Assembly (NCBI RefSeq): GCF_000702885.1
Contig: NZ_JNKO01000002.1
Location: forward strand, 124,001 to 188,000
Origin: Oribacterium sp. P6A1
GTDB taxonomy: Bacteria > Bacillota > Clostridia > Lachnospirales > Lachnospiraceae
Direction of reading: 5' to 3'
Length of the DNA stretch: 64,000 nucleotides
Part shown: positions 18,477 through 49,542 of the stretch, in pieces
Position numbering within the stretch: position 1 is the stretch's first letter
Layout of the letters: each line of letters opens with the position of its first letter
Made by a program: the position numbers and the translations under genes
The notes under the pieces: generated by a model
What the model was told of the DNA's origin: nothing
Seen by the model: the letters and a program-made list of their open reading frames with translations, nothing else
The model's database searches: none

Positions 18477-18533
18477 TTGTTATGTTACAATGTACAAAGA
18501 ATGATCAATCCGGTTTTGCAAGGAGGTAAGGTA

Positions 18534-19490
18534 ATGAAGATTTTAGGCGCGATGCCGTTTACTGACGATGATAAAAAGTATCTTGAAAACATCGCGAAAG
18601 ACTGCGAATTCGTGTATAAAAACAAGGAATCAGTGGGTGAAGATGATGTTCAGGACATAGATATTATTCTTGGCAATGTATCGCCGGATGTCATATCACG
18701 GGCACCTAAGCTCAGATGGCTTCAGACCAATTCCGCAGGGGTTGATGTTTACTGTAAGGATGGGATTCTCCGCCAGGATACTTTACTGACCAGTGCCTCC
18801 GGTGCCTACGATACGACGGTTTCCGAGTGGATGGTATCTGTATGCTTCATGCTGGCCCGTAAGGAAGACTTATATATGCGTAATCAGGTAGAAAAGCTTT
18901 GGAAGCATGAGGGCAAAGTAGTGTCTATAGAAGATTCGGTGACGCTGGTGCTGGGGCTTGGTTCCATAGGTAAGCATTATGCGAAAAAGATGCATGCCCT
19001 GGGAAGCTATGTAATCGGTGTAACGAAAAACCGGCATAGTGAAAAACCGGACTTCGTTGATGAACTTTCAACCGTTGAGAATCTTGATGAGCTGCTGCCA
19101 AGGGCCGACTATGTTGCAATGGTGCTTCCGGGAACGGCGGAAAATGTTCACATCATAGATGCTGAACGTCTTAAGCTGATGAAGCCCACTGCTTTCATAA
19201 TCAATGCAGGCCGCGGTAATGCTATAGACGGCGTGGCACTTAATGCCGCACTCAGGAACGGAAGTATAGGCGGCGCAGCCCTTGATGTTACGGATCCTGA
19301 ACCGCTTCCTGAGACAGATCCTTTGTGGGATGCCCCAAGATGCATCATTACCCCGCACATTGCCGGACAGTTCTATCTCAAAAAGACCTTCGAGAATATC
19401 GTGAAGATCACAGGAGAAAATCTTGAAAAGTATCTGTCCGGAGACATAGAGGGGATGAGAAACAAAGTGGATCACAAAAAGGGATACTAA
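18534..19490 (+). CDS. D-2-hydroxyacid dehydrogenase family protein
   Basis: A 318-residue NAD-dependent dehydrogenase. The Rossmann motif LGLGSIGKHYAKK is near residue 140. The catalytic trio is recognisable: Arg in NAGRGNAID, Glu in DPEPLPETDP and His in TPHIAG. The substrate may be an alpha-keto acid or a related D-hydroxyacid. The ATG at 18534 follows AAGGAGG. It reads toward the secreted flavin reductase gene, which is convergent, with structured element copy A between them. A link between the two (a hydroxy/keto acid and an electron acceptor) is speculation. Confidence 0.88.
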   Translation: MKILGAMPFTDDDKKYLENIAKDCEFVYKNKESVGEDDVQDIDIILGNVSPDVISRAPKLRWLQTNSAGVDVYCKDGILRQDTLLTSASGAYDTTVSEWMVSVCFMLARKEDLYMRNQVEKLWKHEGKVVSIEDSVTLVLGLGSIGKHYAKKMHALGSYVIGVTKNRHSEKPDFVDELSTVENLDELLPRADYVAMVLPGTAENVHIIDAERLKLMKPTAFIINAGRGNAIDGVALNAALRNGSIGGAALDVTDPEPLPETDPLWDAPRCIITPHIAGQFYLKKTFENIVKITGENLEKYLSGDIEGMRNKVDHKKGY

Positions 19491-19542
19491 TAAGAAGTTA
19501 AGTATAAATCTTCCAACATATCTTTATTGCTAAGTAACGTGA

Positions 19543-19697
19543 AGAAAATGCAAGGGATGGGTGACTGGGCTTGCGAGTTGAAAGAACAGACTGATTGCTA
19601 TGTACGAACCGGATGCACTTTTGTGCAGCCGGAGCGAACATAGCAAGAAGGATGTACTTTCAATCTCGTGGGCCGTCACCCGCCCCTTGCATTTTCT
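19543..19697 (+). repeat. Family-1 structured element, copy A
   Basis: This 155-nt region folds into one long articulated stem: 14 bp (19543-19556 with 19684-19697); 7 bp (19559-19565 with 19675-19681); 10 bp plus 7 bp around a 1-nt bulge (19568-19584 with 19657-19674); 9 bp (19595-19603 with 19638-19646); then CCGG/CCGG and GCAC/GTGC capped by TTTT. Copy B is at 49389-49542. Between the copies, 19568-19591 and 19649-19665 are identical, including the internal loop AACAGA opposite GGATGTA. It begins 53 nt after the dehydrogenase stop. Confidence 0.8.
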
Positions 19698-22995: not shown

Positions 22996-23086
22996 AATCG
23001 AGTAGGGAAATTACGCCCTACTCGATTTCACGTTGGCCTTCACATGTGCTATTGTACAAGCACAACGCACGCGTGAAGGCCTTATC
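22996..23086 (-). repeat. Family-2 structured element, copy 2
   Basis: This is the minus-strand counterpart of the element at 1147-1236. Hairpin II is 12 bp and perfect (22996-23007 with 23016-23027). Hairpin I is 9 bp and perfect (23035-23043 with 23073-23081). Read on the minus strand it starts GATAAGGCC just behind the T-run of the minus-direction terminator at 23096-23127, the same arrangement as copy 1. Hairpin I arms differ from copy 1 at three pairs yet stay paired. Confidence 0.75.
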
Positions 23087-23095
23087 GCGAATAAA

Positions 23096-31678: not shown

Positions 31679-31720
31679 GATTTTGAGAAGGGCTGAAGGT
31701 AACGATACAGCCTGATGATA

Positions 31721-31778
31721 AAAACCAAAGAGCCTGTGGCATCCATTTGAAAACGGATGCCACAGGCTCTTTGGTTTT
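31721..31778. terminator. Bidirectional terminator, 24-bp perfect stem
   Basis: 31721-31744 pairs exactly with 31755-31778 around a 10-nt loop, with a T-run in both orientations. It separates the convergent DHHW and oligopeptidase genes. Confidence 0.92.
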
Positions 31779-31802
31779 TTAGATATTTACGCTGACATTT
31801 GG

Positions 31803-37505: not shown

Positions 37506-37559
37506 AAGCTCAGTGGCAAAGGACAGGCAGCAGCCTGTTCCGTGAACCCGTGAAATCTA

Positions 37560-37620
37560 AAAGCCTGTGTATCCTGTAACCCTTAGCGATGGTTACAGGA
37601 TACACAGGCTTTGATTTTTT
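37560..37620. terminator. Bidirectional terminator, 22-bp perfect stem
   Basis: 37560-37581 pairs exactly with 37591-37612, followed by GATTTTTT. It lies between the convergent DUF4317 and mnmA genes and can serve both. Confidence 0.9.
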
Positions 37621-38748: not shown

Positions 38749-38811
38749 TTTTACCTCCGTGGGCCAGGTGCCCGCCTGTTTCATCCGGGGCGTATCTGTC
38801 CCATCAATAAA

Positions 38812-49388: not shown

Positions 49389-49542
49389 GGAAAAGGCAAG
49401 GGATGTGTGCCAAGGCTTGCGAGTTGAAAGAACAGACGCACAGACATGTACAAGACCGGATGCACGTAGTGCAGACGGGACGGACATGTCGAGCAGGATG
49501 TACTTTCAATCGAGTGGGCCGGCACGCGCCATTGCCTTTTCC
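49389..49542 (+). repeat. Family-1 structured element, copy B
   Basis: This 154-nt region folds like copy A at 19543-19697: basal stem 49389-49399 with 49532-49542, then 49405-49411 with 49521-49527, then the conserved long stem 49414-49430 with 49503-49520, the distal stem 49443-49449 with 49484-49490, and a GCAC/GTGC tip. Two blocks are identical to copy A (49414-49437 and 49495-49511). The stems between them have changed while staying paired. It begins 33 nt after the preceding glycosyltransferase stop and fills most of the gap before the next. Confidence 0.8.

Follow-up and report, generated by a model that had tools for sequence, protein, structure and literature searches.

A 155-nt palindrome and its second copy

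The window, a 64,000-nt stretch of the Oribacterium sp. P6A1 genome, carries a 155-nt palindrome, copy A, between a 2-hydroxyacid dehydrogenase gene and a flavoprotein gene on the opposite strand (both named by Pfam matches; Table 1). A preliminary description made from the sequence had proposed that this region folds almost end to end, and folding bears this out: copy A reaches –100.2 kcal/mol against a mean of –42.3 for shuffled sequences (z –15.2), a value equaled by none of 200 shuffles. Complementarity is 91% for its outer arms (19543-19565 with 19675-19697) and 78% for its inner arms, and it scores 149.2 bits against the family model described below, over 19544-19696. The second copy claimed for the window is real as well, copy B being 80% identical to copy A across 154 columns (blastn). 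Both blocks said to be identical in the two copies, of 24 nt (GGCTTGCGAGTTGAAAGAACAGAC) and 17 nt (AGGATGTACTTTCAATC), are present, and the paired changes listed at 19560/19680, 19564/19676, 19598/19643, and 19599/19642 all read as described. The motif at the end of the right flank also borders plain hairpins.

Table 1. Coordinates of the palindromic element, its parts, and associated repeats (window positions unless a locus is named)
Feature	Position	Strand	Basis
Copy A, whole palindromic element, 155 nt	19543..19697	+	Fold z; family-model score
Copy B	49389..49542	+	156.7 bits to family model; Pfam neighbors are glycosyltransferase family 2 on both sides
Left flank outside palindrome, AACGTGA	19536..19542	+	Commonest left-flank kind (flank composition, 75 copies)
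Right flank outside palindrome, GTACTATTTCAA; commonest form GTACCATTTCAA	19698..19709	+	Flank composition, 75 copies
Near-invariant block, left half GGCTTGCGAG	19568..19577	+	Wobble pairs in alignment A4
Near-invariant block, right half CTCGTGGGCC	19665..19674	+	Alignment A4
Exchangeable core TTGAAAGAACA...TGTACTTTCAA	19578..19663	+	Separate histories of core and outer arms; other cores at orthologous loci
Possible relic of a copy, CCTCCGTGGGCCAGGTGCCCGCC, weak	38754..38776	+	By eye, orthologous-locus comparison
Type-2 repeat	L095:683-803	reverse	
Type-2 repeat	L257:153-265		
Type-2 repeat	L263:97-209		
Type-2 repeat	L267:97-209		

Other features of the window were recorded alongside. An Rfam scan of the whole window at the gathering threshold placed nothing on the element and matched only a tRNA and a TPP riboswitch elsewhere, the latter at 998-1103 (57.3 bits). 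Two further strong inverted repeats, at 31720-31779 and 37553-37619, look by eye like ordinary terminators. Another short repeat, at 22996-23088, shares 85% identity with sequence flanking a copy in genome G014 (L107) and starts in a small palindrome around AATCGAGTAGGG...CCCTACTCGATT. The locus of the possible relic is occupied by the element in G004, G012, and G014, and the first bases of the relic may be a ribosome-binding site read backwards. The dehydrogenase gene beside copy A (18477-19490) is flipped relative to its other neighbor in G004 and G014, and in G014 it is flanked by elements on both sides, as expected from recombination between inverted copies.

A repeat family of Oribacterium and its kin

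A covariance model was built from eight copies collected with blast and was then run on genomes. The source genome holds eight strong copies (134–161 bits), with weaker relatives on contigs C7, C8, and C29. Nine of 98 genomes match at E ≤ 0.001, all from one genus, Oribacterium and its kin, in which 9 of the 17 genomes match, the source genome included. Under stricter filters the model returned nothing from 43 genomes that represent the family’s other genera or from 38 genomes of the order’s other families, and a laxer search of the eight same-genus genomes without matches was again empty. Carrier genomes hold between 5 (G008) and at least 30 (G014) copies at divergent places; the assembly of one of them, G010, is only 73% complete. 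Elements matching the model at 106.9 bits or above are 149–160 nt long, and 100 copies listed across genomes served as the working set. An exact-pattern scan of genome contigs from 84,980 species hit 39 stretches, all in Oribacterium or in Lachnospiraceae bacterium JC7, and no match to the element appeared in plasmids and phages (blastn) or, with one exact pattern, in viral contigs. Copy A is a member of a real, dispersed, noncoding family of palindromes seen only in a part of Oribacterium and its kin.

The search of relatives advocated in the preliminary description thus yielded many further copies and strong covariation, and the adverse outcome that it had envisaged, a lack of both additional copies and covariation among related genomes, did not occur. 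It had recognized no known family, and Rfam gave no match to the element either, also in a lax search (E ≤ 10) of loci L001–L003. The other finding that it had named as telling against its proposal, a hit to Rfam or to the end of an IS or MITE, came out divided, with no Rfam match and with an anatomy that is MITE-like. Searches of the literature on palindromic repeats and structured RNA motifs of Oribacterium and on MITEs of Lachnospiraceae showed no description of the family among the papers listed. So far as these searches reach the family is undescribed, while its broad kind, palindromic and nonautonomous repeats resembling MITEs, REPINs, and ERICs, is already known.

Anatomy and covariation

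Alignment A4 comprises 72 of the 100 listed copies, the other 28 having been left out by hand, close orthologues, tip-deleted copies, and divergent subfamilies among them. Its consensus fold has 48 pairs, and 96.3% of 3445 cells pair. Both sides have changed at 32 of the 48 pairs, and on each of five covariation measures the observed value was out of reach of all 500 shuffles. Two neighboring wobble pairs, a tandem U.G/G.U (U19572.G19670 and G19573.U19669 in copy A), are invariant in 72 of 72 copies, and a third wobble position is U.G in 56 and U-A in 16. Conservation extends beyond the palindrome for about 9 nt on the left and 12 nt on the right.

The conserved internal loop that had been proposed, AACAGA facing GGATGTA, holds for copies A and B and for part of the family but not as a general feature. 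AACA is missing from the stretch searched in 24 of the 93 full-length copies, and among the 69 that have it, at least two of the eight bases from AACA onward are unpaired in 43 and at most one in 26, so that the loop is common, yet a good third of the scorable copies are almost wholly paired there. The idea of a sarcin-ricin-like loop was dropped because many copies pair at this place. The core arms each carry GAACA and then TGTNC, usually 12 or 13 nt apart (loose patterns found in the left arm of 75 and the right arm of 77 of 93 copies), an arrangement that would suit a protein site on double-stranded DNA or RNA just as well. At the apex, C(GNNA)G and C(GAA)G loops are frequent, and such loops favor DNA hairpins. 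Outside the wobble block, a strand-neutral comparison of the two arms of 93 copies gave 232 G.U against 121 A.C mismatches on the plus strand, beside 660 others, a count from related copies whose events are not independent and in which 39 of the 121 A.C cases sit at two positions beside a bulge. This G.U excess favors some constraint on the plus strand as RNA or single-stranded DNA.

Persistence, core exchange, nesting, and decay at orthologous loci

Orthologous loci were identified through their flanks, and copies are orthologous at many of them; the site of L083:3001, for example, is occupied in G010, G011, G014, G015, and G016. Non-orthologous copies share a core identity of 0.97 with outer arms at 0.78–0.87 and flanks at 0.44–0.49, whereas one orthologous pair has outer arms at 0.97 and a core at 0.74 (an automatic split into modules failed for 6 of 93 copies). 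These identities point to separate histories of core and outer arms. Upstream of a gene whose product starts MVNRVYVEKK, which we take to be purL-like, G000 and G012 carry the type-1 core, the similar outer arms of G014 and G016 enclose a core of 121 nt that is unrelated to it (‘type-2’), and neither is present in G010, G011, and G015. Nesting was seen in L099 compared with L132, in L105 compared with L128 and L152, and also in L111; in both L099 and L105 the place of the orthologous element’s core is taken by a complete element. The nested cases could be products of ectopic recombination.

Decay is visible in G015, where one copy, intact in G000, has lost its tip, and at the sites of 13 copies (5 from G015 and 8 from G004) that were probed in relatives with joined flanks, L075 being left out with flanks 6 kb apart in G011. 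Among 17 site comparisons judged by eye, 8 have the outer stem on both sides and have lost the center (L073, L078, and L079 in G011; L078 in G000; L113, L119, and L130 in G014; L117 in G012), and 6 of these keep a right-arm fragment. Only pieces are left at L079 in G000, L118 in G014, L114 in G012, and L121 in both G014 and G012, and no element remnant was seen by eye at L080 in G011 or L131 in G012. The L114 site in G014 is filled with another core, and L131 in G014 gave no printed sequence. The same loci are thus occupied, vacant, or scarred in different relatives, vacancy often being a secondary deletion. With many of the vacant sites being scars left by deletion, there are few clear recent insertions. 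The short plain hairpin L035 had been considered as a possible empty target, a reading that was dropped because several such short forms keep a right-arm fragment and are deletion products.

Copies of this family persist at orthologous loci, exchange cores between loci, nest, and decay by loss of the center. With its full, core-swapped, nested, and deleted forms at orthologous loci, the family lends itself to tracing how arms are corrected, cores exchanged, and palindromes lost. At L082:3001-3155 and L084:385-539, on two contigs of one genome and near the contig ends, the element is flipped between the same short flanks, which is either a true inversion or an assembly effect.

The type-2 repeat is a separate structured element of 110–121 nt with 6–9 matches per genome in six Oribacterium genomes. 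Three of its copies in G015 lie directly upstream of 16S rRNA genes, which Rfam SSU matches place at L257:1-151, L263:1-95, and L267:1-95 on the minus strand. Other copies stand in for the main family’s core or break into it, in six cases immediately following CTTGC. At the gathering threshold Rfam offered no family for the type-2 repeat at the three 16S-side loci and four type-2-core loci, the miRNA-like matches at the latter four falling below that threshold.

Position relative to genes

Genes were called with a simple longest-ORF script, and stops are therefore firmer than starts. The 100 copies lie in ++ (38), –– (22), +– (21), and –+ (15) orientation to their neighbor genes, with one neighbor missing for 4; ORFs of at least 90 aa cross the element in 15 of the 100 and were set aside on the assumption that they are spurious. 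In 43 copies a minus-strand neighbor has its stop codon facing the right end, no more than 35 nt away in 31 of them; for the left end, 60 copies have a facing stop and 11 have it within that distance, a difference (Fisher p 5e-8) computed on copies that include orthologues and are not independent. In antisense tandem contexts, 20 of 21 copies lie closer to the stop than to the start that follows, a 22nd copy (L101:1437) that would count against having been left out by hand; in sense tandem contexts 23 of 38 are nearer the stop, which is no significant preference (p 0.26). Toward the G+C stem and T run of an intrinsic terminator, the element has by sequence the outer stem plus TTTTCTGT; at copy A a simple terminator scan found none, its loop limit of 3–8 excluding so long a hairpin. 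A role as a 3′-end hairpin is plausible for one orientation because the right end so often lies within 35 nt of a facing stop, and the element may mark gene ends in Oribacterium.

Could the element then be a functional cis-acting RNA, a terminator or mRNA-stabilizing hairpin in the 3′ region of mRNAs that is selected copy by copy, with its spread secondary? Such selection would account for the right end’s proximity to facing stops and for the antisense tandem copies, but sense tandem copies show no significant preference, 18 of the 100 copies face a stop with neither end, and some copies lie in the direction of transcription between genes resembling a pur series, presumably so from their start peptides. 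The null terminator scan at copy A, within its loop limit, also weighs against it. Center-deletion scars that retain the outer stem and the T-rich end fit the same alternative, although palindrome instability also predicts loss of the center with retention of the stem. We regard a cis-acting RNA as a possible explanation, if a doubtful one.

What the covariation means

Of 19 ortholog pairs, 11 kept their core (693 pairs compared, summed by hand). These 11 show 24 one-sided changes, 11 keeping and 13 breaking the pairing, and 8 two-sided changes, all still paired, against about 0.6 double changes expected under independent change. Four of the eight double changes lie side by side in two couples, the arrangement expected of single templated events. 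Where the core was replaced or had diverged (8 ortholog pairs), 27 double changes keep the pairing and 11 break it. Pair-by-pair selection therefore seems weak, since breaking changes are common. Template switching in replication can create and maintain hairpin stems (PMC8794818), and compensatory changes are reported to be common in REPINs (PMC3116915).

Because palindrome arms can be corrected at the DNA level, and because REPINs show the same pattern, covariation is insufficient here as proof of RNA function. From the conserved loop and the compensatory stems, the preliminary description had suggested a functional RNA or a mobile RNA-structured repeat; the mobile repeat fits best, and a functional RNA does not follow from those two features, the loop not being general and copies lying in all four orientations to their neighbor genes. 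The family is a natural case of textbook covariation within a dispersed palindrome, a case clear enough to calibrate how far covariation can be trusted as proof of RNA function.

A palindromic repeat that probably spread as DNA

We consider it probable that copy A belongs to a palindromic MITE-like repeat family, of the REPIN, ERIC, or Correia kind, that spread as DNA and whose copies were later tolerated or came to serve as 3′ hairpins. The element, made up of outer arms, the near-invariant tandem U.G/G.U block, and the core, folds end to end as single-stranded DNA or RNA and would have moved in DNA form, aided by a transposase or recombinase. Template switching between the arms during replication would largely keep them complementary, and selection would spare the wobble block, by which the folded strand would be recognized. 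Copies, once placed, would serve or be tolerated as hairpins near gene 3′ ends. In favor of this reading we counted the dispersal of copies in all orientations, orthologous copies, core exchange, nesting, center deletions, and arm correction. Against it we counted that no mobilizer or target duplication was found in the searches below, the scarcity of clear recent insertions, the ORFs across 15 of 100 copies, the 11 pairing-breaking double changes in the core-replaced or diverged ortholog pairs, and the excess of G.U over A.C, which could mean selection on a plus-strand RNA.

The family is of interest for its modular exchange and its invariant wobble, and the two would be joined in a modular, strand-specific hairpin mobile element whose enzyme reads the folded strand through the tandem wobble (CUUGCG against CGUGRG) and places cores into block-bearing hairpins. 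We think this unlikely. If true, the enzyme would be of a kind not previously linked to such repeats, the outer arms would be a scaffold, and the cassette would be the core, the whole element, or the type-2 element. Should the wobble block prove to be recognized by a protein, it would point the way to the mobilizer.

Candidate mobilizers and remaining alternatives

Four candidate mobilizers were compared between the nine carriers and the eight non-carriers of the genus, and all were rejected, none being both in all carriers and absent from non-carriers. The Y1 transposase (PF01797) occurs in 9 of 17 genomes, five of them carriers (G000, G004, G008, G012, and G014) and four non-carriers (G001, G006, G009, and G013), with four carriers lacking it (G010, G011, G015, and G016). 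IS110 (PF01548) is in 8 of 9 carriers and 6 of 8 non-carriers, the reverse transcriptase RVT_1 (PF00078) in 7 of 9 and 4 of 8, and DDE_3 (PF13358) in 3 of 9 and 1 of 8. No target-site duplication was detected in the 57 of 100 copies taken for that test (best z 5.2, against 3.1–5.6 in 20 permutations); not every MITE family shows one. Matches to the right-end motif number 36, of which 30 have loci, and in the 15 without a type-1 core that were inspected by eye, about 330 nt each, no transposase-carrying relative was seen. Since the tested protein families do not track the element and no target-site duplication emerged, we infer the mechanism of spread from anatomy only.

The Y1 distribution and the flanks bear on the proposal that the copies are REPINs proper, doublets moved by a resident RAYT (Y1 transposase). 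REPINs have, according to PMC3116915, a similar architecture of conserved parts and a variable spacer of nearly fixed length, with similar compensatory changes and extragenic dispersal, but Y1 is absent from four carriers, among them the 73% complete G010, and present in four non-carriers. Of the 75 copies that the flank tables cover (25 of 100 lacked anchors), 8 have GTAG no more than 8 nt to the left of the palindrome base, which is some support yet not the rule, given GTGA in 24 and GAAG in 23. Among REPIN/RAYT features the compensatory hairpin changes were found, and a resident Y1 and a GTAG-type base tetranucleotide were not; because these two features fail, we did not file the element as a REPIN, an identity that we hold quite improbable.

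A trans-acting or ligand-binding RNA, like a small RNA or riboswitch with the near-invariant block as its active part, would explain why the wobble pairs never vary and why G.U exceeds A.C on the plus strand, but not why each carrier holds its copies at so many divergent places and in any orientation, nor why an unrelated element can replace the core at the same locus; with Rfam also silent, it is very improbable. The chance reading, in which copy A would be an ordinary long terminator whose second copy is fortuitous, as the existence of short plain hairpins with the same ends might suggest, is refuted by the fold z, the 72 aligned copies, and the shuffles.

Comparison with known repeats

As a palindromic MITE-like repeat, the element has the features of bacterial MITEs in its size (about 100–200 bp), its terminal inverted repeats with a long stem-loop fold, its multiple dispersed and mostly intergenic copies, and its presence or absence at orthologous sites; no target-site duplication was detected at the termini. 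The plain short hairpins L035, L242, and L248 share its base (AGAAAA..., ...TTTTCT), and L242 and L248 its right-end motif; unlike it, they have no core, and several comparable short forms are deletion products of full elements.

REPINs, as PMC3116915 describes them, are likewise extragenic, dispersed inverted-repeat hairpins that combine conserved segments with a spacer in which length is important and the two sides change in concert. The element differs in occurring in four of nine carriers without a Y1 transposase match, in having GTAG at only 8 of 75 bases, in being about twice the 71-bp GI spacing, and in exchanging its cores independently of the outer arms.

The ERIC/IRU, Correia/NEMIS, and RUP MITEs are alike in being 100–200 bp long and largely intergenic, with terminal inverted repeats and transcripts foldable into long stem loops, and one Correia form of about 155 bp has a 50-bp internal segment that a form of about 107 bp lacks (PMC2229807). 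In contrast to these families, the element has no detected target duplication or related IS and differs in sequence and host; it is, moreover, nearly wholly palindromic and nests in its own kind.
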